Shown piece by piece: positions 7,533 through 37,466 of a DNA stretch of 54,731 nucleotides. This DNA is from Candidatus Endomicrobiellum siamense. Its GTDB lineage: Bacteria > Elusimicrobiota > Endomicrobiia > Endomicrobiales > Endomicrobiaceae. The DNA is taken from NCBI GenBank assembly GCA_031268145.1, contig JAIRXS010000011.1:1-54731 (forward strand). Direction: 5' to 3'. A program made the translations under genes and the position numbers. The stretch's first letter is position 1. The number at the start of each line of letters is the position of its first letter. The notes below the pieces were generated by a model. The model was not told the origin of the DNA, did not search any database, and was given only the letters and a program-made list of their open reading frames with translations.

Positions 7533-8342
7533 ATGAAAAATTATTTTAAAAAAGTTAAGTATTATATACACATTTATAGAATGATATTAATTCAAGATCT
7601 TAAAACTAAAATGAGTTTTAGAGCAGATTTTTTGATTTCATCTTTTAGTGGAATAATGCTTAATGCGGCAAGTTTTATATCAATTTGGATTATGTTTCAA
7701 AATTTTTCATCGATAATGAACTGGAACTATTATGAAATGTTGTTTTTATATGGTTTTTCTTTGTTAGCATTAACACCTCAATTGGTATTTTTTGATAATA
7801 GCTGGGTTTTGTGCGATAAGGTATTCAAAGGGGATTTTATCACGTACTGCTTTAGACCAATTAATATATTTTTTTATTATACATTTGAAAAGATAAATAT
7901 AAACGCAATAGGACAATTTTTTATAGGCGTTACACTCATAACGTATTCATGGATAAAGTTGGGATTGGATGTAAATACAATAATTGTTTTTAAATTAATT
8001 ATTTCGCTTTTAACAGCTTCTTTATTTATGATAGCAATAGTAATTTTTATATCTTCAATGTCTTTTTGGATAATTAACGCAAAAGGATTAATGGATTTTT
8101 TTTCGAAATTTAAAGATTATACTAGATATCCTTTTACAATATTCAATAACTTTTTCAAATTTGTTTTTAGTTTTATAATTCCAATTGGATTTGTTGCTTA
8201 CTATCCAAGTTTGTTCTTCATACATACTGAGGAATTGTCTTGGATTTCGTTTTTTGGTGTGTTTTACGGCATAATCTTGTTATATTTTAGCTATAAAGTT
8301 TGGGTGAAAGGTGCCTTGCAATACTCAGGAACTGGATCTTAA
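7533..8342 (+). CDS. ABC-2 exporter permease subunit 2 (COG3694-like)
   Basis: The second membrane subunit, 269 aa, with about six hydrophobic segments and the short cytoplasmic N-terminus typical of this family (a hydrophilic stretch ending in the TKMSFRADFLISSF region). Its ATG directly abuts the preceding TAA. Systems with this ATPase-permease-permease order export hydrophobic or amphipathic small molecules or unknown substrates in many bacteria. No Wzx flippase, Wzy polymerase or Wzt-type substrate-binding domain occurs in the window, so this trio is the only obvious exit route for the operon's product. Confidence 0.8.
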   Translation: MKNYFKKVKYYIHIYRMILIQDLKTKMSFRADFLISSFSGIMLNAASFISIWIMFQNFSSIMNWNYYEMLFLYGFSLLALTPQLVFFDNSWVLCDKVFKGDFITYCFRPINIFFYYTFEKININAIGQFFIGVTLITYSWIKLGLDVNTIIVFKLIISLLTASLFMIAIVIFISSMSFWIINAKGLMDFFSKFKDYTRYPFTIFNNFFKFVFSFIIPIGFVAYYPSLFFIHTEELSWISFFGVFYGIILLYFSYKVWVKGALQYSGTGS

Positions 8343-8406
8343 AAATATTTGTTTAGAATCAAATTTTAAAAAACATTCTAAATCTCATTATAAGGTTCGA
8401 AAAATT

Positions 8407-9471
8407 ATGGAAAAATACGGATTGATAATGGCAGGTGGTAATGGAACTCGTTTTTGGCCAATGTCACGAAAAAAAAGACCTAAACAATTTCTGAATTTGA
8501 GTAACAAGTTGCCTTTAATATATGAAATTTTTGAACACCTTGCAATGATAATTCCGCGTGAGAAGATTTTTATAATCACTAATATTGAGTATAAAAAATT
8601 AGTAATGGAAACCTTTAATTATAGTTTTCCAGAAAGCAATATTATATGTGAACCGTTAGCTCGGAATACTGCTGTTTGTATTCTTTATTCTTTGTTAAAA
8701 ATAAAACATATTTATGGAAATGGAAGCATTGTGATAGTTCCATCCGATTCATATATCGGAAATAATAAATTATTTTGTAGAAACATTAATGACGCATTGA
8801 ATTACATTGAGCAATCAAACGATATAATTACTCTTGGGATAAAGCCAAAATTTCCCGCAACTGGATACGGATATATTAAGTACTCTAACAGTATGCAAAC
8901 AATAAAAAAAGTTCTAGAATTTAAGGAAAAACCTACCTATGAGACTGCTGTTGAATACGTAAAAAGCAAGGAGTATGTTTGGAATAGCGGAATATTTATA
9001 TCAAACATATTATCATTAATAGAAAACTATAAGAATTTTTTACCGGTAATGTACGAACAGCTGATTAAAAATAACACATATATAGAAACTTTAGATGAAT
9101 ATCATAAACTAAAACAATTATATCCGTTATTGGAAAACATATCTATTGATAAAGGAATAATGGAAAAAACATCACAAATTAAAGTAATAATGGCCGACTT
9201 CATATGGGATGATATTGGCAGCTGGGACAAGCTTAAGGTTTATCATAAAGAAGATAGAAAAGGAAATATTTTTGTTTCTAAGCATGTAGATATTGACACT
9301 GAAAATACGATTTTCTATTCAAAAGACAAGATGATAGCAACACTGGGGTTAAAAAATATAGTGATCGTGGAACATGACGGTGTTATACTCGTTTGTGACA
9401 AAGGACGAGTACAAGATATTGGTAAAATAACTGAAAAATTAAAAAAAGAGGATAAAGAAAAATATTTATAG
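8407..9471 (+). CDS. manC: Mannose-1-phosphate guanylyltransferase
   Basis: Makes GDP-mannose from mannose 1-phosphate and GTP. The nucleotidyltransferase signature GGNGTRFWPMSRKKRPKQF is at 10-28, followed by EKPT, WNSGIFI near 192 and WDDIGSW near 267. The 354 aa comprise the nucleotidyltransferase domain plus a short beta-helix; the C-terminal phosphomannose isomerase domain of bifunctional versions is absent, matching the separate isomerase gene at 15420-16304. The frame opens upstream at 8311 inside the permease gene, but the family motif begins just after ATG 8407, which has TAAGG eleven bases upstream, so I use that start. Confidence 0.92.
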   Translation: MEKYGLIMAGGNGTRFWPMSRKKRPKQFLNLSNKLPLIYEIFEHLAMIIPREKIFIITNIEYKKLVMETFNYSFPESNIICEPLARNTAVCILYSLLKIKHIYGNGSIVIVPSDSYIGNNKLFCRNINDALNYIEQSNDIITLGIKPKFPATGYGYIKYSNSMQTIKKVLEFKEKPTYETAVEYVKSKEYVWNSGIFISNILSLIENYKNFLPVMYEQLIKNNTYIETLDEYHKLKQLYPLLENISIDKGIMEKTSQIKVIMADFIWDDIGSWDKLKVYHKEDRKGNIFVSKHVDIDTENTIFYSKDKMIATLGLKNIVIVEHDGVILVCDKGRVQDIGKITEKLKKEDKEKYL

Positions 9472-9486
9472 GTCTGGAGAAGCTTT

Positions 9487-11226
9487 GTGAACAATTACAT
9501 TGATCGGTACAACTACTGGTGTTGCGCTAGTTTATTCAAAGAGAGCGTAAGGGAAGAACTAAAAAAAATACGTAATAACATAAAAGAAATTGAAGACCGT
9601 TTTTGTTGTGATATTAAGTTCGGAACAGGTGGTATTCGTGGTTTAATGGGTGCAGGTACAAATAGAATAAATGAATACACTATTCTTCGTGCAACCCAAG
9701 GAATAGCACACTATATTATTAGTCAAAATAGTAAAAAGAAAAGTGTAGTAATTGCATATGATACAAGGCTTAATTCAAAATATTACGCTGAATTAACGAC
9801 TCTATGTTTAAATAAAAACGGAATAAAAACTTACTTATTTAAAGATAGTTCACCTACTCCAGAGCTATCCTATACAATTAGAAAATTAGGCTGTATTGCG
9901 GGTATTGTTATTACAGCAAGTCACAATACTTTTGAATATAATGGGTATAAAGTTTATTGGAGTGACGGGGGACAAATTACTGATTTAATGGCAGAGAGAT
10001 TATTTAAGGAAATTCAAAAAGTTGATTATTTTGATGTAGATTATCAGCACAGCCAGCTGTTTGAAAATGACTTGAATTGTTTTATAGGAGAAGATATTGA
10101 TCAAAGTTATATAGATACAATAATTAATCTTTCGTTAATGCAAGAAACAGACTCATTTGACGGTGTTTCAATTGTATATACGCCTTTGCATGGGACGGGA
10201 GCTAGATTAATAAAAAATATTGCCGATCGTCTCGACATAAAAAAATTTTATATGGTAAATGAACAAATCGAAAATAACGGCTATTTTTCTACTGTCAATT
10301 CTCCAAATCCAGACAATAAAGAAGTTTTTAACATGGCTTTAAATTTAGCGAAAAATAAAGATGCAGACATAATTATAGCAACAGATCCTGATGCGGATAG
10401 GTTAGGGGTTATGGCAAAAAAAGAAAGTGATGAATATAAATTTTTTACAGGTAATATGTTAGGTGTTTTTCTATTAAATTATATATTAGAACAAAAACAA
10501 AAAATGAATATTTTACCACCAAATGGTGTTGTTTTAAAAACAATTGTCTCATCAAAAATGATTGAAGAAATAGCAAAAAATTATGGTCTCGAAGTTATAG
10601 AAGTATTGACAGGTTTTAAGTATATAGGAGAGCAAATTGAAATACTTCATCTAAATAAAAAAGAATTTGTGTTTGGACTTGAAGAAAGCAATGGATACTT
10701 AGCCGGTATATACGCAAGGGATAAAGATGCAATTTCTGCTGCTATGATTCTTTGTGAGGCGTGTGCATTTTATAAATCTAAAGGAATTTCAGTCTGGGAT
10801 AAAATGTTAGACCTATATAAAAAGTATGGATTTTATAAAGAAGATATTATAAATGTAAACTTGTCTAATATAAATGAAATAAACAATGTAATACATAGTT
10901 TAAGAAGTCTTTCTCATGACATTATTTTGAAAAGTAATGTAATAAAAATTAATGATTATATATCTAGCAAATCCTACGATATAATTAATAATACGGTAGA
11001 AAATATTAAGCTGCCTAAATCGAACGTATTGTTATACGAAATGAACAACAGCAACTGGTTTGCTGTTAGATCTTCCGGAACTGAAATAAAGCTTAAGATT
11101 TATTTTGGAGTAAAAGATAGGCATATTAAAAACGCTAATTCAAAATATAAATGTATAAAAACTTTAATTTATGACTTAATAAACTTAGCTTGTAAAAATG
11201 TAGAAAGGAGGGAAAAGCAATTTTAG
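9487..11226 (+). CDS. Phosphomannomutase/phosphoglucomutase
   Basis: An alpha-D-phosphohexomutase that interconverts hexose 6- and 1-phosphates and here probably supplies mannose 1-phosphate to the neighbouring guanylyltransferase. The phosphoserine loop TASHN is at 143-147 (Ser145), the metal-binding loop DPDADR at 300-305, the sugar-binding loop GLEESNGY near 397, and the phosphate-binding RSSGTE lies near the C-terminus. The length of 579 aa fits the PgcA/yeast-PGM-like long form. The start is GTG 9487, eight bases after CTGGAG. The last codons overlap the proposed start of the next gene. Confidence 0.92.
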   Translation: MNNYIDRYNYWCCASLFKESVREELKKIRNNIKEIEDRFCCDIKFGTGGIRGLMGAGTNRINEYTILRATQGIAHYIISQNSKKKSVVIAYDTRLNSKYYAELTTLCLNKNGIKTYLFKDSSPTPELSYTIRKLGCIAGIVITASHNTFEYNGYKVYWSDGGQITDLMAERLFKEIQKVDYFDVDYQHSQLFENDLNCFIGEDIDQSYIDTIINLSLMQETDSFDGVSIVYTPLHGTGARLIKNIADRLDIKKFYMVNEQIENNGYFSTVNSPNPDNKEVFNMALNLAKNKDADIIIATDPDADRLGVMAKKESDEYKFFTGNMLGVFLLNYILEQKQKMNILPPNGVVLKTIVSSKMIEEIAKNYGLEVIEVLTGFKYIGEQIEILHLNKKEFVFGLEESNGYLAGIYARDKDAISAAMILCEACAFYKSKGISVWDKMLDLYKKYGFYKEDIINVNLSNINEINNVIHSLRSLSHDIILKSNVIKINDYISSKSYDIINNTVENIKLPKSNVLLYEMNNSNWFAVRSSGTEIKLKIYFGVKDRHIKNANSKYKCIKTLIYDLINLACKNVERREKQF

Positions 11227-12086
11227 TATTAAAAAATAATCTGGACAAAAAAATTATTAGTACCAATTTTTACATATTTGTAGACGGCAATTTATTTAAT
11301 GTTAGAAATTGGAACAAAGGATTTAATCAACTTGAAAAATTGGTTAAGTGTATTAGAAAAAATTGTAATGACACTTTTAAAATTCATTATCAAAGTTATC
11401 TAACAACAAAAGCAGATACACTATTAATGATGGCAGTAGCCCATGTTATGAAAAGTATATTTTGCTTGAAAAACAGTAAATATCTTGATATCACATTTTC
11501 ATACAGTTTTCCGCTTTATGATGAAATACACCTAGTTAAACATATGATGGAATGCTTGGATGATATAGTTGACACCGGTTTAATCATACTAGATTATTCA
11601 GATAATTTTTCGAAAATTTCAATTTCAGACGAAGAAGCATATAACAAATGTATGAAAAACGACTGTGCGTACTTAATAAGAAGAAATAGCAAAGACATAT
11701 CCATCAATAAACAAAGTAACTTGTATTCGTTATTAATAAATTGGAGAAATTTTTGTAGGTCAAAATTTAAAAAAATATATAGTAAAAAAATAATAGATGT
11801 TTACATGAAGTTATTTGTTCAAAGTGGATTTATGCCAATTACGTACTCCTATAATGGAGATATTATGGCACAAGAAATATACTATAAAAGTCCTAGAAGC
11901 AACACCAATTATATTTGTATTTTTATTTGGAACAAAGAATACAAAAACAGATGTCCTGGTAAATATGCTTACGCACTATCCATAGAAGAATGCAAAAAAG
12001 AAAATCGTTTTTTTTCTTATTGTTACGGAGCTCAAAATTATAAAAAAACTTGGATGAAACCATTTTTAGAAAGTGGAATTAGATGA
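11220..12086 (+). CDS. GNAT-fold acyltransferase-like protein (Acetyltransf_6 type)
   Basis: A protein of about 288 aa if read from ATT 11220. The C-terminal half resembles the Acetyltransf_6/CelD/FemAB-like fold: a conserved core beta region (YNGDIMAQEIYYK), GKYAYALSIEECKKE, and the closing YGAQNYKKTWM. The frame is open upstream of the first conventional start (TTG 11340), and a perfect AGGAGGG at 11206-11212 lies seven bases before ATT 11220. This suggests either a rare ATT start or a start codon damaged from ATG. The stop overlaps the next gene's ATG. It probably transfers an acyl or aminoacyl group to the operon's product. Substrate is unknown. Confidence 0.55.
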   Translation: MLVLKNNLDKKIISTNFYIFVDGNLFNVRNWNKGFNQLEKLVKCIRKNCNDTFKIHYQSYLTTKADTLLMMAVAHVMKSIFCLKNSKYLDITFSYSFPLYDEIHLVKHMMECLDDIVDTGLIILDYSDNFSKISISDEEAYNKCMKNDCAYLIRRNSKDISINKQSNLYSLLINWRNFCRSKFKKIYSKKIIDVYMKLFVQSGFMPITYSYNGDIMAQEIYYKSPRSNTNYICIFIWNKEYKNRCPGKYAYALSIEECKKENRFFSYCYGAQNYKKTWMKPFLESGIR

Positions 12087-12856
12087 AAAAACATAATATA
12101 TTTTTAGCTCCGCATTTAGACGATGCCGCACTCTCTTGTGGGGATTTAATTTGTAAATTAGTTACTAGAGACGAAAAATGCACAGTAATAACAATTTTTT
12201 CTGGCAGTCCAGCAACAAAGTTTTTGTCTGCTGCTGCTAAACAATTTCACTCAAATTGTAATTTTGGTAATAATCCAATTTTTCACAGAAAAATGGAAGA
12301 TAAAAATGCTATGCGTTTATTAGGATGCGAATATAAGCATTTAGACTTTTTAGAATGTTTATACAGGGCAGATGAACCAGAAAATCATATATATTCAAAT
12401 TTAAATCAAATATACTGTTACAATCATGATAAAGATAAGAATTATGAATATATGGTAGAAAAAGCGTTATATAGTGAAGTAAAAGACTCTGATGTAGTAT
12501 ACGCTCCCTTGAGCATAGGAAATCATGCAGACCATATTATGACTAAAATATTATATCTAGATTATCAAAGAAAATATCGGGGGAAATTTATTATTACGAA
12601 GATATACTTTATGTTTCTGGAGTAAACGGCACAACTGTATATAAAGAGAAAACTAATGGTCTTGGTGAAAGTATAATAAACATTACCGAAAACGAATGGG
12701 AAAGGAAAAAAATGTGCAGTTAAATGCTATAAATCACAAATCAAGATTATGTGGGACAGTCTTGAAACTATGCTCAAAGATATTGATCACGTTTCAAAAA
12801 CACATGCGACTGGAAGAAGCATACGCTTATGGCATATGAATAAAAATATTACATAA
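12083..12856 (+). pseudogene. PIG-L/LmbE-family deacetylase, two frameshifts
   Basis: The family removes N-acetyl groups from amino sugars using zinc. The metal-binding motif is visible as PHLDDAALSCG near residues 9-19 and a second ligand in NHADH near 148. The reading frame breaks twice. At the G run 12579-12583 the frame must shift to read GEIYYYEDILYVSGVNG, and at the A run 12706-12712 it must shift again to read CAVKCYKSQIKIMW, finishing at TAA 12854-12856. With both corrections the protein would be about 257 aa, a normal family length. Deletion or insertion in homopolymers explains both. Unless sequencing errors are responsible, the deacetylase step of the pathway is lost. Confidence 0.85.
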
Positions 12857-12899
12857 ACAACACCAATAGAATTTTTAAAATCAAGGAGATCGTATTGCC

Positions 12900-28623: not shown

Positions 28624-31600
28624 ATGCTTGATAATCAATCTCAAAAAAATCTTGATGTTAATTTTGTCATCAATAAGCAATATGTAAGTGTAAAAAAAAT
28701 TGGAGTTGGTGGTTTTGGTATTGTATGGCAAATCTATAATTTTAGTTTAAAAAACTATGTTGCTTGTAAAGAGCTTTTATCCCAGTTTTCTGAATTGAAA
28801 TTTGTAGAAATGTTTTATAAAGAGGCATTGATTGCTAAAAACATAGTGCATGCAAATATTGTAAGAGTGCAGCATTTTTGGAAAGGTAACAATGGCTCTT
28901 TTTATATTTTGATGGATTATGTAAATGGTACGGACCTAGAAAATCTTATAAAAAGATGTAATGAATATCAAATAAAGCTACCGTGGGAATTTTCTATTGT
29001 TATATGCATGAATGTGCTTAGAGCAATAGATTATATAAATCGTGTTGCAACTGATCCAGTTACAAGTAAGCCTTATGGGATAGTTTATCGCGATATTTCT
29101 CCAGGAAATATTCTAATTTCTTTTGAAGGTAGTATTAAGTTGAGTGATTTTGGTATTGCAAAAACTGCAGATGACTTAAATACTACTTTAAACCAATCAG
29201 TTGTTACTGGCAAATATGCTTATATGTCTCCTGAGCAAATAAAAGGGTCCAAAGATATAGACCACAGGTCTGACATATTTTCTACAGCTGTTATATTTTA
29301 CGAAATGCTCACAGGTAAACAGCTTTTTTCTGGCAATATTTCTGAAATAAAATCGTGCGTTTTAAATCAAGAATTTAATAAAAATATTTTAGATGGCTTA
29401 GATTTGCCTGCTGAGATTGGGGAAATTCTTTCAAAAGCTCTACAGATAGATAAAACTGAGCGTTATGAAAGAGCCATTGAGATGTATAGAGATTTAAGAC
29501 GAGTTTTAAAAGGCGTTGATGAAGAAGATATTATTTCAGATTTTTCGTCTTTTGTGTTAAAAGTGATGGAAAAAGAATTTAATAATTCTGTTGCATTGTC
29601 AAATATTGTTAAAACAATTGACGCTAATGCAGTAAATAATGATCCATCTATTATTAAAATTAATGCTTCAGATTTTATTGCAGGCCAAACAGAGATACAA
29701 ACTATGTCGCCAGAAACTAGACAAATTAGTAATGAAGATATTAAAGATGTAGGTAACAAATCTAAAGAATTTCAGTCACCATTTGAACCTAAGGGAAAAA
29801 CTATTTTTGAAGAAGTCGATGATTGGTTTAAAAGAAAAATAAGTAATTTAAAAAGTATTTTAGTAAAAACTTTAGTAAGTATTTTAGTGCTTTCCTTTGT
29901 TTTTTTAGTTTGTGATGTTTTCTTGCAAATTACACCAGCTGGCGAATATATTTATGCCAGAATTAATCCTTCAGATGTTGTAATTACCACGTTTCCTCAA
30001 GATGCAACAGTTTCAGTAAAAACTAAAGAAGGGGAAGTTGTTATTGAAAATGAAAGTTCACGAAAGCCTATTGCTTTAAGAAAGATTCATCCTAATTCAT
30101 ATGTTGTTACCGCTACTAAGCCTGGTTTTCTTCCGATACAGCGTATAATTACTATAGAGGGCAATTCTGGAAAAGGACAAGAAAAAATAGACCTTGTGTT
30201 TGATATTGGCTTAAGAGTCGAATCCCATCCTAAAGACGCAGATGTTTATGTAGATGGAAATAAAGTTGGGGTTGCTCCATGTACAGTGCAACTTTCCGCT
30301 GGCGGAGCGCATACTTTAAGATTATCATTACCAGGTTTTTCTACTCTTGGTTCTGATGCAAAAGAATTTAAAGACGGTCAGTGTAATATAGACTTAACTA
30401 AGTCTAGTCAGGAAGAAATTTTCTCAGGTGTGGATAGAAATTTTTGGGATGTATTATTACAAGAGCAAGGAAATGATCAAATATTTACTATAGCAGGACA
30501 TTTTTATAAAAAAATTACTTTTACCACAAATCCAAAAAATATGATTTTGCAAATGTATGGTGAACCAAAACCTAGAGGGATTACTCCAATTGTTTTAAGA
30601 TTAAAAGAAGGCGATTATAAAATTAAATTTCTGGATCCTAATGGTAAGTATTCTGAAGTTGTAGAAGATATAAAAGTTTCTTCTTCTACTCCAGAACAAA
30701 TAGTTGTTGGCATGAATAAGTTGTTTACATTTAAGGTAAAAGCTAAAGACTCGTCAGTCTCTTTTAAAGCGAAATTAAAGATAGAGCGTAAATATTCTGT
30801 GATTGAAGATAATGACGCTGCACAATCAATTAATCAACAAGTGACATTGGAATCTAGTGTATTTAATCAACAGATAACTAACAATATTGCGGTAAGTACA
30901 GAAAGTGTTAATCATCAAGAAAAATTTAATAGTGTTTCTTCTTCTACAACTTCAATAGCTAGTAATATTTCTGAAAGTTCTGTAACTTTACAAACAAATG
31001 CACAGGAAAATGAAGTCGTTGCTCCATTGGAAAGTAATTCTCCTACTATTTTAAGTACAGAAAATAAAACAGAACAAGAAATAGAGGATTCAGAAAGTGA
31101 TAAATCTAATATAAAAGATATAAGTGCTAATAAAGCATTGTCTATAAATCTTCCTATTGATATATATAAATTTACTTTTTTTGCAGATGGCTTTGAGCCT
31201 TTTATCAAAGATGATGTAGATATTGAAAAAATAAATTCTATCAGCGTTGAGTTATCTCCTGCAAAAATTCCTTTGAAATTGAATCTTCGTATATAAATGC
31301 TAAAGGGCAGAGATTACCTGTTGAGAGTGCTGCTATTTGGATTGATGACATTTTATTGGGTGAAACTAACATTGAAGGAGAATGGGAATATAAAGTTGTA
31401 AAGAGTAAAACAATAAAAGGAAAAATTGTAGCAAAAGGATTTATAACGCAAAATTTTAATGTTTCTCCAATAATTGGTAGTGATAATATTAAAAAGATAA
31501 CTTTGATTTCAAAAACATCTTTGCCTATTGATGAAGATGGTGCCTCTATAAGTAAGACAAGAGTTAAAACTACAAAAGAAAATCTGACAAGAGAACAGGG

Positions 31601-31760
31601 GAAAAAAGACAAAAGTTTAGATCAAAAAACAAATAAGATTACAACTAAAAAAGATGAAGAACAAATAATAGTCTGTTCGTATTGTGGTTATGCCAATGTA
31701 ATTCCAAAAGGTAGAAAGCTAAGGTTTTGTTTAAATTGTGCTAAACCTCTAAAATATTAA
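28624..31760 (+). pseudogene. Membrane Ser/Thr protein kinase with PEGA repeats, frameshifted near the 3' end
   Basis: Residues 20-300 form a complete Hanks-type kinase: G-loop GVGGFG near 27, Lys49 in VACKELL, catalytic Asp157 in YRDISPGN, Asp175 in DFG and activation segment MSPEQ. A transmembrane helix lies near 415-438. Beyond it are PEGA-type beta domains (about 445-520, 535-590, 635-690) and a Ser/Thr/Asn-rich stretch. The frame stops at 31296, but reading from 31275 in another frame continues as ESSYINAKGQRLPVESAA and ends at 31760 with a CxxC/CxxC zinc ribbon. A fourth T in CCTTTGAA (31270-31277) would restore one protein of about 1045 aa. The kinase domain should still be made as an 890-aa product, so activity may persist. 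Confidence 0.8.
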
Positions 31761-31789
31761 CTTTAATTATATATAACAAGGAGAATTTT

Positions 31790-33967
31790 ATGCCTTTGTT
31801 GTTGCTAAAGAAAAAAGAACAAATTTTAGGAGAATATATTTTAAAAAGAAAGAATAAAGTTTTTATTGGTAAAAAGAAAACGAATGATATTGTTATAAAT
31901 GACTCATTAGTTTCAGATAATCATTGTACTATAATTTTAAATAACAACAAGTATTATGTCAAAGACCAAAACACAATCTCTGGCATTAAAATTAATGGTA
32001 AAATTGTTACAGAACAAGAATTATCTGATGGAGATAATATTTCCGTAGGTTCTTATATATTAGAGTATTGGCAAAAGAATTCTGTCCCAAGCAGTAGATA
32101 TTATCTTTTAGGAGTTTATGGTAAATTTGAAGGTAACAAATACTGCATAAAAGATACAGAAACATTTATTGGCAGAGAAGTTTTTACTCCAAGAGGAATA
32201 GAAAACGATATAGTTTTGGCAGGAGACAATACAATTTCTAAGGGCCATGCGGTAATTTGTTTGAAAGATGGAAAATATTTTATAGAAGATACTGGTAGTA
32301 CTGGCGGAGTTGCTATTAATGGTTTAAAGATAGGCCAATTTGAAAATTTCGCTATACAAAGTGGTGATGAAATATCTATTGGAAGATCAATTTTTAGATT
32401 TGTAAATTCTAATAATGAAGATTATACTTTTCCAACAAAACAAAGAATGTTTTTACTGAAGATTATAAAACCTTTATCTATTAGTATTACAGTTTTAATT
32501 ATTGTGTTATCTTTGTCTTTATTTTTTATTTCAAATAGAATTCTTTCTATTATGAACTCTTCTGATGAGAAGCTAACATTAGAACTAGATACAAGTTTTA
32601 AGAAAGATATCCCTTTAAAACCTTTAGAAGAATATCATAAAACCCCTACCCCTGCAGTTGGGGATATTTTAAGCAATGGTAATAATTCTCTTATAACTCT
32701 TACTGGTTCTGGTTTTTTATATGGCTGGGATTTAAAAACTGGTAAAGAATTATGGAATCGTGTAGAGGTGTTAAATTCAGATATTGGTTCTCCAATGGTT
32801 ATTGATGTAAACAATGATGGAGTAAAAGATATTATTGTTTTATCAGCTAATTCTATGCTTTATGTATACGATGGACAAACTGCTAGTTTGATAAGGAAAG
32901 AAGTAATTGGCGGTGATATTGTTGGACTTACGCCGTTAGCAGGTGATTTAACTGGCAATGGTAAAATAGATGTGGTTATATGTTCTCAAGATGGTGCGAT
33001 TAGTTTTCTATATAATGTAGGTTATGACAAAGAGTATGAGAAGGTTATAGAATATGTTGATGGTCCTTTATATTCAACACCAGTTTTATGCAATAGAAAA
33101 AACAATGTTCCTTTCGTAGTTGTTGCAAATAATAAAGGTAAAATTTATTTTATAGACGGTAAATCTCGTGAAAAAAAGATGTTAGATTTGCTAGAAAAAA
33201 CAGGAAAAGAACATTCTATTGTAACAGCGCCAGCTGTTGGGCAGATAACCAAAAATGGTAGTGATGATATTGTAGTGGTAACAAATCACCCTCAATATGT
33301 TTCTGCAATTGATGTTGCTAATTTAAATGTTCTATGGACTTTTCAAGTTGACCATATTCCGCCTCAAGACTTATCATACACTGCAGCGCCTTTGATTTCT
33401 AACGGAAATGTATTTTTTGCTTCTGCTAATGGAAATGTGTATTCTTTAAAGGGTAAAACAACTTATCCCTCTGGAGAACTGTTGTCTACTTTAGCAATTC
33501 CTGATGCAAAAAGAATAATAGGTAGCCCATCTAAATATGATTTTGATAAGGATGGGTACGATGAATTTGTTGTTGGTACGGAAGATGGAAGGATAGTAGT
33601 TATTAAAAATAATATTAAAAGACAAGAACTTGAAATTCTTAGTGAAATAAAAGCTAGCAATGTGCCAATAACATCATCTCCTTTGATTGTTGATGCTTTT
33701 AGTTCTGGCAAACTAAATATTATATTTTCCAATGCGACTAATGCTTTACAGATTCTAAATACGAATTCAAAAGTTATGAAAGGTTTTTGTCCATGGCCTA
33801 TGTATCTAGGTAATGCAGCTCACACAAATCAAGAAACTCCTCAACCTAAAATGAGATATTATTTAATGTTTTATTCATCTATTTTACTTTTTGTTGGTTT
33901 TGTATCTTTTAAAACTTTTATATTAGTAAAGAAAAAGTTTAAAAGGATTAAGGTTAAATTCCTATGA
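31790..33967 (+). CDS. Membrane protein with two FHA domains and a beta-propeller
   Basis: A 725-aa protein. Two FHA domains occupy about 20-85 and 120-195; the second is canonical (IGRE, NDIVLAGDNTISKGHA, then GSTGGVAING), so it should bind phosphothreonine. A transmembrane helix is at about 227-250. Residues 280-675 contain repeated blades such as VIDVNNDGVKDIIVLSANS and DFDKDGYDEFVVGTEDGRIV, of the FG-GAP/PQQ-like propeller type. A second helix is near 690-713, with a basic tail. The FHA domains and the tail face the cytoplasm and the propeller the periplasm. The upstream kinase and downstream PP2C are the likely writer and eraser of its ligand. Confidence 0.85.
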   Translation: MPLLLLKKKEQILGEYILKRKNKVFIGKKKTNDIVINDSLVSDNHCTIILNNNKYYVKDQNTISGIKINGKIVTEQELSDGDNISVGSYILEYWQKNSVPSSRYYLLGVYGKFEGNKYCIKDTETFIGREVFTPRGIENDIVLAGDNTISKGHAVICLKDGKYFIEDTGSTGGVAINGLKIGQFENFAIQSGDEISIGRSIFRFVNSNNEDYTFPTKQRMFLLKIIKPLSISITVLIIVLSLSLFFISNRILSIMNSSDEKLTLELDTSFKKDIPLKPLEEYHKTPTPAVGDILSNGNNSLITLTGSGFLYGWDLKTGKELWNRVEVLNSDIGSPMVIDVNNDGVKDIIVLSANSMLYVYDGQTASLIRKEVIGGDIVGLTPLAGDLTGNGKIDVVICSQDGAISFLYNVGYDKEYEKVIEYVDGPLYSTPVLCNRKNNVPFVVVANNKGKIYFIDGKSREKKMLDLLEKTGKEHSIVTAPAVGQITKNGSDDIVVVTNHPQYVSAIDVANLNVLWTFQVDHIPPQDLSYTAAPLISNGNVFFASANGNVYSLKGKTTYPSGELLSTLAIPDAKRIIGSPSKYDFDKDGYDEFVVGTEDGRIVVIKNNIKRQELEILSEIKASNVPITSSPLIVDAFSSGKLNIIFSNATNALQILNTNSKVMKGFCPWPMYLGNAAHTNQETPQPKMRYYLMFYSSILLFVGFVSFKTFILVKKKFKRIKVKFL

Positions 33968-35391
33968 AAGTTTCATATTATGCTAAAACAGATATTGGTC
34001 TAGTAAGAACAGAAAACCAAGACTGTTATGGTATAGGTGATGATTTTTATTTAGTTTGTGACGGCATGGGTGGCGGTGTTGCAGGAGCATTTGCCAGCCA
34101 AATAGCAGTTGATATTATTCTCAAATTAAGTAAAACTATAAATAATGAGCAAGTAAGAGACATTATTGAAGACTTTTCAACAATAAACAATGCTATAGAT
34201 ATTGCTATCCCTATTGCCACAATCATGCTTGCAAATAGAATGCTATACAATCTGATTGTTAAATATCCAAAACTTGCAAGTATGGGGACGACAGTAGTAT
34301 TAGCTAAGGTTGACAAAGAATACAATGTAATAAATGTCTATCATGTAGGAGATAGTAGATTATACAGAGTTAGAGAAGGACATATAGAATTGCTTACTAA
34401 AGACCATTCTAAAATAAATGATTTATTAGATTCTAGAAAAATAACAAAAGAAGACATAAAATTTACAGAAAATCAAAATGTTATTACAAGAGCATTGGGA
34501 ATGGCGTCTAATATAAAAGTAGATTATAGACAGTATGATTATAAAATTGGCGATTTTTATATTATGTGCAGTGATGGTTTAAATGGTGAAATTGGCGATG
34601 AGGAAATTAATAATTTAGTTAATAAAAATAGTACAAATTTAGCTTTTGCTGTAAATGAGCTTATAGCAGCAGCAAATCGTGCAGGTGGAAGAGATAATAC
34701 TACTGTTATTATATTTACAATAGATGATGATGGTCAACCTGTTAAATTATTGAAAGATATTAAAGAAGAAGTTTTGTCATTTAGCGATGATGATTTACAA
34801 AAAAACTTGTATGAAGATAGAATTTTAAAAAAAGTATTAAGAAAATTAGGTATAAAAGTAAGAGTCCCGGAAAATTTTGTAAAGGAAAAAAAATTTACAA
34901 AACATATAGCTATCTCTTTGGTGGCATCTCTAGTATTATTAACTTTTTTTGTTTACTATTTTTTTTCTAAAAAAAGTGAAAATAAAACTTATGATGAACA
35001 GTCAGATAATATTTCAGGTGTAGTGTTAAACATAAGGCGCTTAAAAGAAAATAGACTAAAAGCTGTGCAGGAAACTAACAACTATTATGACAGGAAACAG
35101 TTACTGGAAGAAGCCAAGACTTATTATGAAAATTATTCCTTTATATTTGTTAATGCAGTTGTTTTTATTGAGGAAAAAAACGGATATAATAAATTTATTG
35201 CATTTTCTGGCAGCTATCCAATAAAAGTTTATTTGCCAATTGGAAAATATAAAATGTATTTGAAATATAAAGGGTTTAGTATGATTAACGATAATTTTGA
35301 GATTGTTAAGCAATTGGATTTTTCAGTAGATTTAGTCGGCGGGCTAAAAGAGAAAATAATTTTAATGGTTCCAAATACTTTAGGAGACTAG
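33964..35391 (+). CDS. PP2C-type Ser/Thr phosphatase with transmembrane segment
   Basis: Residues 1-255 form a PP2C domain with its metal-binding aspartates: RTENQD near 15-20, VCDGMGGG near 31-38, HVGDSR near 125-130, CSDGLNGE near 203 and GGRDNTTV near 241. A transmembrane helix lies at about 315-335, followed by a coiled segment and a beta-rich periplasmic domain (about 390-475) resembling a PEGA-like fold. It should remove phosphate groups placed by the upstream kinase. The ATG overlaps the previous stop as ATGA, so it is translationally coupled to the FHA protein. Confidence 0.9.
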   Translation: MKVSYYAKTDIGLVRTENQDCYGIGDDFYLVCDGMGGGVAGAFASQIAVDIILKLSKTINNEQVRDIIEDFSTINNAIDIAIPIATIMLANRMLYNLIVKYPKLASMGTTVVLAKVDKEYNVINVYHVGDSRLYRVREGHIELLTKDHSKINDLLDSRKITKEDIKFTENQNVITRALGMASNIKVDYRQYDYKIGDFYIMCSDGLNGEIGDEEINNLVNKNSTNLAFAVNELIAAANRAGGRDNTTVIIFTIDDDGQPVKLLKDIKEEVLSFSDDDLQKNLYEDRILKKVLRKLGIKVRVPENFVKEKKFTKHIAISLVASLVLLTFFVYYFFSKKSENKTYDEQSDNISGVVLNIRRLKENRLKAVQETNNYYDRKQLLEEAKTYYENYSFIFVNAVVFIEEKNGYNKFIAFSGSYPIKVYLPIGKYKMYLKYKGFSMINDNFEIVKQLDFSVDLVGGLKEKIILMVPNTLGD

Positions 35392-35395
35392 TTTT

Positions 35396-35773
35396 ATGCT
35401 TCAAAAGAAAATTTTAGTTGTTGATGATGATGTAGCTTTTATAGACTCTATAGAAATGTTTTTTTCTAGTGAGGGATTTAGTGTTGTAAAGTTAATAAAC
35501 CCAGATAATATTTTTGATGTGTTGGAAAGAGAAATTCCAGACTTAATTTTATTAGATGTGTACTTGCCTAAAACTAATGGTTTTGAGATTTTAAAGAATC
35601 TAAAATCTCACTACATGTTTTCAAGTATTCCAGTTATTATGATTACAGCAGATGTTACAGTTCATATAGATAAAGCATTTTCACAAGGAGCAGATGATTG
35701 TATTTTTAAGCCTGTAGATCCTCAAGCTCTTATAAAAAGGATATCAAAGGTATTACATGAAAAAATTATATAG
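35396..35773 (+). CDS. Single-domain response regulator
   Basis: A 125-aa receiver domain without an output domain. The acidic pocket is Asp10-Asp11, the phospho-acceptor is Asp54 in LILLDVYLP, Thr84 is the switch residue and Lys105 lies in FKPVDP. No histidine kinase is present in the window. Lying four bases after the PP2C gene and overlapping the next gene by 17 bases, it may link the kinase/phosphatase module to a two-component input or act as a protein-protein switch. Confidence 0.9.
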   Translation: MLQKKILVVDDDVAFIDSIEMFFSSEGFSVVKLINPDNIFDVLEREIPDLILLDVYLPKTNGFEILKNLKSHYMFSSIPVIMITADVTVHIDKAFSQGADDCIFKPVDPQALIKRISKVLHEKII

Positions 35774-37466
35774 CGCGTTTTTAATGTTTATATTTTTATA
35801 TTCTATTGATATTTTTGCAGGTAATGATATTTCTGCAAAAAACCTTTTTTTTTTAAACTATGACGCTCAGTCTAGCGCTATGGGAAACAGTATAGCAGCT
35901 TTTTCTAATAATTCTTTTTCTTTTATAAATTCTCCTTCAACAAATTTTAATTTTTTGCCCAAAAGAACAGATATTTCCTTTATCTCTTTACCAAGCAATA
36001 TTTCTAGTGCTATGTCTATTTCTATGCCATTTTCATTTGGAAATATTACAATAGTAGGTACTCATGGCCAATATTCTTCTAAAGAAGTTTATATAGACCA
36101 AGAGTACTATTTGAAGGATAGCTCTGTGTTATATTTAAATTATGCAGTACCTATTTCTAAATCATATCCTATATACAAAAATATTGGTGGTATTGGAATA
36201 ACAGTAAAAGGTTGTAAATTAGGTTTTAATGACATTTCATCTGTTATATACTCTTGTGATTTTGGAGCCCATTATAAACTTCATATGATAGATGACGGTT
36301 TTTTTGTTGTAATGAGCATTAAAAATTTAGGTAATAATAAAGTTAATTTAAACAATCAAACAGTCAAAGAAAACCTTGAAAATTTTGATTTTGCTTTAAG
36401 ATATAATTTTAGAGGAGTTTCTAATTTTGCACTTGTGGCAGATATGATTAAATTTTTTGATAACGCTAATATAGGCTATACATGTGGAGCTGAAATTTCT
36501 CCAGTATATCCTGCAACTTTTAAAGTAGGTTATACTGATTATAACAATGGTTTTTTGAAAGGTATTACTGCTGGTATTTTTCTAAATTTTAATTCGTTTA
36601 ATATAGGATATGCCTTTTCAGGAATCAATACTATAGAGGCAAAACATACTGTGAATATGGGTTTTATGTTTGGCAGCATAGAAGATGCTAATAAAGCTTA
36701 CAATTATTATTTAGGTGTTAACTTTATTAAAGCCAAGGAAGCATATGATAGAAAAGATTTTATAAACGCAAGGCAAATGTTTGAAAGTATTCTTGCTGTA
36801 TATCCAAACCATGAGCCATCTAAAAAATATTTACAAAAAATTATTTATGATCTTGATACGAACGAAAAAAGTGTGGAGCTTACTGTAAACAAGTTTTTAC
36901 ATAAAGCGCAAAAAGCATATGAAAATAATAATTTAATAAAGGCAAGAACTTATTATAGAAAAGTTTTGGGCGTAGATAGTGCTAATATGCTAGCATTAGG
37001 AGGTATTTCTAAAATAAATAAAATGTTAGAAGAATTAAGTCTAGATGAGAATAAAAAAATAAATGCAAAAAAGGTTATGTCTCTATGGGAAGAAGGAGTA
37101 AAGTTTTATGATAGAAAAGATTTCATTTTTGCACAGGAAAAATTCAAAGAAATTATATTAATTGACCCTCAAAATCCAGGAGCTTTAAAATATTTAACTC
37201 TTATTGCAACCCAACTGTCAAATATAATTTCAGTACAAGCTAAAATAGTTTTTGAACAAGCAATGCATTACTATAACGAAAAAAATTATAAAGAAGCTGC
37301 AAGACACTTTAGTGCGGCGTATGTTACAGATCCTGAAATGATTGAAGCTAAAGAGTATTATATACTTTCTAAAAAAGCATTAAAGCAAAGCTATGATGAT
37401 ATAGATTTATTTAAAGACAAACATATTAGTGATACTGTAAATAGTAAGGCATCAAGAAAAAAATAA
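35757..37466 (+). CDS. PorV/PorQ-like outer-membrane protein with C-terminal TPRs
   Basis: A signal peptide (KKLYSAFLMFIFLYSIDIFAG, about residues 2-22) precedes a beta-barrel region of about 290 residues. It opens with the family-typical YDAQSSAMGNSIAAF and SFINSPS. Residues 318-545 are TPR helices, including AKEAYDRKDFINARQMFESI, KAQKAYENNNLIKARTYYRK and GVKFYDRKDFIFAQEKFKEI. It overlaps the response regulator by 17 bases and ends the operon. PorV proteins act in type IX secretion in Bacteroidota and have poorly characterised relatives elsewhere. The TPR half should be periplasmic and may dock partner proteins. Confidence 0.75.
   Translation: MKKLYSAFLMFIFLYSIDIFAGNDISAKNLFFLNYDAQSSAMGNSIAAFSNNSFSFINSPSTNFNFLPKRTDISFISLPSNISSAMSISMPFSFGNITIVGTHGQYSSKEVYIDQEYYLKDSSVLYLNYAVPISKSYPIYKNIGGIGITVKGCKLGFNDISSVIYSCDFGAHYKLHMIDDGFFVVMSIKNLGNNKVNLNNQTVKENLENFDFALRYNFRGVSNFALVADMIKFFDNANIGYTCGAEISPVYPATFKVGYTDYNNGFLKGITAGIFLNFNSFNIGYAFSGINTIEAKHTVNMGFMFGSIEDANKAYNYYLGVNFIKAKEAYDRKDFINARQMFESILAVYPNHEPSKKYLQKIIYDLDTNEKSVELTVNKFLHKAQKAYENNNLIKARTYYRKVLGVDSANMLALGGISKINKMLEELSLDENKKINAKKVMSLWEEGVKFYDRKDFIFAQEKFKEIILIDPQNPGALKYLTLIATQLSNIISVQAKIVFEQAMHYYNEKNYKEAARHFSAAYVTDPEMIEAKEYYILSKKALKQSYDDIDLFKDKHISDTVNSKASRKK

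Follow-up and report, generated by a model that had tools for sequence, protein, structure and literature searches.

A kinase, FHA-propeller and PP2C operon of Endomicrobiales and its possible attachment to a T9SS-like export route

The genome of Candidatus Endomicrobiellum siamense carries an operon that joins a transmembrane Ser/Thr protein kinase, a membrane-spanning FHA-propeller protein (FHAP), a PP2C phosphatase, a stand-alone receiver and a PorV-like outer-membrane protein with TPR repeats. This operon is real, conserved and under selection, and we propose that it constitutes a trans-envelope threonine-phosphorylation switch attached to an SprA/PorV-type outer-membrane export route of Endomicrobiales that resembles the type IX secretion system (T9SS), a reading whose chances we hold to be about even. 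The main case for it rests on operon content, conserved gene order, fold and selection. The window analyzed here is a stretch of 54,731 nucleotides (contig JAIRXS010000011.1 of assembly GCA_031268145.1; G000:C8 in our genome set) from a 95%-complete genome of 1.26 Mb, whose nearest relatives are Candidatus Endomicrobiellum metagenome-assembled genomes (MAGs) from termite guts, in the phylum Elusimicrobiota. The operon occupies positions 28624-37466 of its plus strand.

Architecture and conservation of the operon

The five genes lie on the same strand, as an earlier note made from the bare sequence had it, and the family matches are certain for the kinase, PEGA, the two FHA domains, PP2C, the receiver and the TPRs. 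Gaps and overlaps between the genes range from -17 to +29 nt, which points to one transcription unit; a promoter and terminator scan of the locus gave a result near chance level. The kinase (P0001, 28624-31296; Pfam: Pkinase 1.9e-39, PEGA 1.7e-17) is the sole Pkinase-family gene in the genome and combines a kinase domain (residues 20-281) with a single transmembrane segment (TM, 408-440 by hydropathy) and PEGA repeats. Alignment with 8 homologues reveals that the catalytic residues K49, E67, D157, N162, D175 and E204 are kept in all of them, with the adjacent arginine of the YRD motif altered in 1 of the 8. A deletion of one base at about 31275-31281 splits the gene and ends its open reading frame (ORF) prematurely at 31296, as seen in a DNA alignment with three close relatives, in which an uninterrupted kinase ORF of 1046-1071 aa ends in a zinc ribbon. 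The shifted-frame C-terminal part (31281-31760) holds a PEGA/CarboxypepD-like stretch and this CxxC-x14-CxxC zinc ribbon, which is conserved among relatives; the kinase domain, the TM and most PEGA repeats are unaffected by the frameshift. The indel may be a MAG error or a fresh mutation. As the kinase has a single TM, the zinc ribbon (31670-31757 in the window, and in the relatives) is predicted to be periplasmic, an unusual location for it.

The second gene (P0002, 31790-33967) encodes two cytoplasmic FHA domains, a TM (220-255), a periplasmic β-propeller, a second TM (692-714) and a short basic tail. Pfam recovers the two FHA domains (8e-30) along with propeller, FG-GAP and PQQ_2 matches, of which PQQ_2, the BamB model, exceeds its cut-off. 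The phosphothreonine-binding set of FHA2 (G128, R129, S150, H153 and N177) is invariant in 11/11 homologues (alignment A1), FHA1 being less canonical in the same alignment. In an AlphaFold model (pLDDT 82.9), both FHA domains are followed by a TM helix, a propeller with eight blades (a hand count from the model's strand list) and another TM helix. The best solved Foldseek match of the propeller is BamB (TM-target about 0.75, about 14% identity), and this predicted BamB-like fold suggests that the protein acts as a scaffold in the periplasm, close to outer-membrane proteins. The protein is nevertheless not a BamB: it is anchored in the inner membrane by two TMs rather than being an outer-membrane lipoprotein, carries cytoplasmic FHA domains, and scores 31 bits against an equivalog cut-off of 285. 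Its short C-terminal cytoplasmic tail (33932-33964 in the window), of the type K-R-x-K-V-x-F/Y-L, is largely kept in 11 homologues.

The PP2C phosphatase (P0003, 33964-35391; Pfam PP2C 5.6e-6, NCBIfam Stp1_PP2C 3.4e-59) keeps its metal-binding aspartates in 10 aligned homologues and has one TM by hydropathy (311-336), followed by a C-terminal periplasmic domain without an assigned family. Thus the TM predictions for kinase, FHAP and PP2C fit the earlier note's picture of three membrane-crossing proteins with the catalytic and reader parts in the cytoplasm and PEGA, propeller and PP2C tail in the periplasm, although the PEGA-like character it gave to the PP2C tail finds no support in Pfam. The receiver (P0004, 35396-35773; Pfam Response_reg 1.2e-24) has the catalytic residues D10, D11, D54, T84 and K105, which by residue alignment are kept among relatives except for one acidic D to E change in one receiver; several other genera have two receiver domains.

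The last gene (P0005, 35757-37466) encodes a PorV-like outer-membrane barrel (about residues 30-305) fused to periplasmic TPR repeats (about 311-550; Pfam TPR_2 3e-10), an assignment proposed in the earlier note and borne out by profile-profile comparison, structure prediction and fold comparison. The hhalign match to a PorV alignment (A2) has P=96.6 and E=5.5e-10, the AlphaFold model (pLDDT 76.6) consists of a barrel plus TPRs, and the top Foldseek matches of that model, 8gl6_F and 6h3i_F, are T9SS translocon entries whose chain lengths suit PorV. On these models the barrel appears nearest to the PorV of T9SS.

Homologues of FHAP were found in 42/341 Elusimicrobiota genomes, namely in most members of Endomicrobiaceae other than Endomicrobiellum, in several further Endomicrobiales and in one genome that is placed in the same phylum only. 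Among 84,980 species genomes scanned, 36 FHAP loci were recovered, all from Elusimicrobia/Endomicrobia except one. This exception (L081) is a contig filed as Paludibacter that carries the operon in the Elusimicrobiota gene order, and is probably a misbinned MAG contig. The full order, in our gene labels, is KIN-TAIL-FLGD-PORV-coiled coil-FHAP-PP2C-REC-PorV/TPR. By hand count, the kinase is upstream of FHAP in 20/20 loci with enough flank, PP2C adjoins FHAP in 34/36 loci and PorV/TPR is present in 29/32. The order from kinase through FHAP, PP2C and receiver to PorV/TPR is repeated across Endomicrobiales and, together with PorV/CTD genes (CTD, C-terminal domain), reaches the distant genome listed under the phylum only (L043, G058). 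Gene-order conservation had been set beforehand as a check, and the scattering of these genes in unrelated contexts was not found.

Most relatives have four extra genes in the interval between kinase and FHAP: a secreted fibre-like protein, a CTD protein, a PorV-family barrel and a coiled-coil protein with a signal-like N-terminus. The CTD protein ends in a FlgD_ig/T9SS type-A-like sorting domain; the matches of these middle genes reach 90.5 bits for PorV_fam (cut-off 90) and exceed the cut-offs for Por_Secre_tail and FlgD_ig. By locus comparison, all four are missing in the window, where the junction spans 31761-31789, and in its three nearest relatives. Purifying selection persists after their loss: the ratios of nonsynonymous to synonymous substitution (dN/dS) of the five genes are 0.14-0.38 between the window and its subclade, compared with 0.12-0.31 for the neighbors TrpS, GlgA and ScpB; for the kinase against close relatives the values are 0.23-0.33.

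SprA homologues and a possible T9SS connection

Given the PorV-family and CTD matches in the operon, we searched for the SprA translocon. An SprA-like protein of 1700-1850 aa (TIGR04189, E 1e-34 to 4e-45) is present in 24/24 sampled Elusimicrobiota outside the genus and in the window's genome, where the homologue is intact (1769 aa, E=4.9e-36; G000:C39:15564-20858, minus strand of L104 at 7565-12871). It adjoins a PorV_fam-plus-TPR paralogue with 23% identity to P0005 and a second protein whose C-terminus is CTD-like; in the same genome two short ORFs have FlgD_ig matches above the cut-off, and the SprA locus has a weak CHU_C match. Pfam SprA_N missed this SprA copy, which a family-specific profile recovered, and the initial suspicion that the window's subclade had lost the translocon was dropped. 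Sequence searches for SprA and PORV relatives with a solved structure returned none of use.

In Bacteroidota, cargo with a type A CTD is collected at SprA by PorV, which acts as its shuttle (PMC12618676, PMC10994853). The genomes considered here likewise combine an SprA homologue, PorV-family barrels and CTD proteins, with a barrel fold nearest PorV. They differ from the T9SS of the cited papers in the host phylum (Elusimicrobiota versus Bacteroidota), in the fusion of PorV to TPRs and in having Ser/Thr kinase, FHA and PP2C in place of PorX/PorY. The GldM model had no match in 10 genomes, where no positive control gave a match either, and the PorU model gave no convincing protease match, its hits being confined to the CTD part except for weak fragments in G058. 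These two negative results, of which the GldM one is uncontrolled, lead us to label the system T9SS-like rather than T9SS; a motor-less T9SS-like system in SprA-bearing Elusimicrobiota is possible. The TPRs invite a further comparison, with the TPR lipoprotein SprE/PorW of the extended T9SS translocon. At the PorV/SprA site, SprE serves as a scaffold of TPRs in the periplasm (PMC10994853), whereas the operon's TPRs are fused to the PorV-like barrel. By this analogy, the fusion could unite the PorV and SprE roles.

The earlier note had suggested that phosphorylation controls a periplasmic assembly or secretion process linked to the PorV-like protein. The operon is conserved, and the link to PorV-type export is strengthened by the second PorV-family barrel and T9SS type-A-like sorting-domain protein in relatives' copies, while control by phosphorylation stays an inference. 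The implication that known secretion machinery is absent does not stand, given T9SS-type components inside the ancestral operon and an SprA homologue elsewhere in the genome; association with a known secretion system elsewhere, which the note had named as an outcome that would speak against an undescribed system, has largely come about.

Several observations weigh against attachment of the switch to this export route. Phosphorylation control of export remains hypothetical, and the TIGR04189 scores of the SprA homologues lie below the equivalog cut-off of 200. PorV-family proteins number 8-45 per non-reduced Elusimicrobiota genome, compared with 0-2 in Endomicrobiellum, and their abundance makes one PorV gene in an operon less telling than it looks. 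SprA is near-universal in the phylum and the switch mostly limited to Endomicrobiales (the 42/341 genomes noted above), from which it follows that SprA does not need the switch. Co-occurrence of FHAP and SprA within the genus (7/7 versus 5/29, p=9e-5; 0.011 in larger genomes) is matched by the metabolic neighbor GlgA, and we therefore take it to reflect genome erosion and do not count it as evidence.

Alternative explanations and related systems

Alternatively, kinase and PP2C could form a general envelope-sensing circuit of the PknB/Stp1 kind that governs metabolism or growth, and the PorV/CTD genes would be passengers. This is unlikely, yet it accommodates the presence of a lone Pkinase that, like the PP2C, resembles the PknB/Stp1 families, and the position of GalT and GlgA as the next genes. 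It also accommodates the loss of PorV/CTD genes with retention of the kinase-FHA-PP2C core at L046-L048, L060, L072 and L075, such trimming being found in at least four lineages (a lineage count not derived from a tree). Passenger status is harder to reconcile with the retention of PorV-TPR at most loci, where in the window's subclade its selection is similar to that of the kinase, and with the extension of the order with PorV/CTD genes to the distant genome of the phylum. Membership in the PknB-PASTA kinases themselves fails, as PEGA stands in place of PASTA and the score is 179.9 bits against an equivalog cut-off of 450. Compared with PknB/Stp1 pairs, the operon shares the kinase and PP2C families but has PEGA/zinc-ribbon for the PASTA sensor, a membrane PP2C and scores below equivalog cut-offs.

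The main rival to a switch on export takes the propeller at face value, as a phospho-regulated aid to outer-membrane assembly in which the FHA-tethered propeller is a BamB-like scaffold for barrel insertion, tuned by kinase and PP2C to envelope stress. The BamB structural matches and the PQQ_2 score fit this view, and BamBCD are reported absent from Endomicrobiaceae (PMC11257099). However, BamB represents a generic 8-bladed fold matched here at low identity, two TMs anchor the propeller in the inner membrane, FHAP is missing from many Endomicrobiellum, and the operon partners are PorV/CTD proteins and not Bam parts; we therefore regard an assembly aid as rather improbable.

The damage at the locus raises the prospect of a decaying relic in an endosymbiont, with the kinase frameshift as the onset of loss. 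Besides the 1-nt deletion, three Endomicrobiellum species have damaged operon copies (heavy decay at L044 and L045, a broken FHAP gene at L042), and genome erosion has been published (PMC11257099). Set against this are the dN/dS values of all five genes, the intact kinase domain, TM and most PEGA repeats, and the chance that a lone indel in a MAG is a sequencing or assembly error, which together leave decay a poor explanation.

A relative of the type VI secretion system (T6SS) threonine-phosphorylation pathway (PpkA kinase, Fha1/Fha, PppA) that moved with T6SS genes is scarcely credible: the writer-reader-eraser logic is shared and the FHA region scores as TagH-like, but this match is at the domain level only, and the absence of T6SS genes claimed in the earlier note extends to the whole genome, VipB having no match in 15 genomes in a search whose E. 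coli control was positive. In both cases a membrane Ser/Thr kinase with a periplasmic part, an FHA reader and a PP2C are encoded together, tied in the T6SS pathway to a secretion apparatus. The operon differs in its lack of the TssB/TssC sheath and other T6SS genes, in an FHA protein that is itself membrane-spanning, with a BamB-like propeller at its far end, in a membrane-bound PP2C and in its PorV/CTD partners. By analogy, it most likely functions like the T6SS pathway without being a member of it, since the defining T6SS feature is absent.

Beyond the operon, the downstream GalT-like gene is intact in the window and in G019, and a remnant in two close relatives (L033:13911-14106, L034:14007-14228).

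Proposed mechanism and significance

For a switch attached to T9SS-like export, all of the physical contacts are inferred, as are the stimulus and the direction in which control runs. In the scheme we propose, the periplasmic PEGA/zinc-ribbon part of the kinase and the periplasmic part of PP2C would monitor conditions at the envelope or the export site, and the cytoplasmic kinase would phosphorylate threonines of itself or a partner. FHA2 would dock on the phosphothreonine, and docking might position or cluster the BamB-like propeller in the periplasm beneath the PorV-TPR barrel and SprA, where the placed propeller would favor assembly or use of the export site. PP2C would reset the switch, and the receiver would supply a two-component signaling input. 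In the window's subclade, with its own CTD cargo and second PorV gone, the switch may act on the remaining SprA-linked PorV-TPR/CTD set. A broader and more doubtful proposal, which we offer tentatively, is that Elusimicrobiota have T9SS-like export (SprA, PorV-TPR, CTD cargo), possibly without a proton motor, and that in Endomicrobiales it is gated by a dedicated kinase/membrane FHA-propeller/PP2C switch, the first such control of a T9SS-type system.

In the open-access literature we found no paper that links Elusimicrobiota or Endomicrobium to this operon, and none that links FHA control to T9SS. Both the association of such a switch with T9SS-like parts and a reader that spans the membrane and joins FHA domains to a propeller seem to be new to that literature. 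Control by kinase, FHA protein and phosphatase is best known from type VI secretion, and, if our reading is true, the principle would extend to another export route. Elusimicrobiota would likewise gain a protein-secretion system that goes unmentioned in a published survey of Endomicrobia genomes, in which the word 'secretion' does not occur (PMC11257099). As the module is found intact, trimmed and decayed in sister endosymbiont species, its dispensable parts can be read from nature, and the lone kinase in the genome would make for unusually clean phosphoproteomics.

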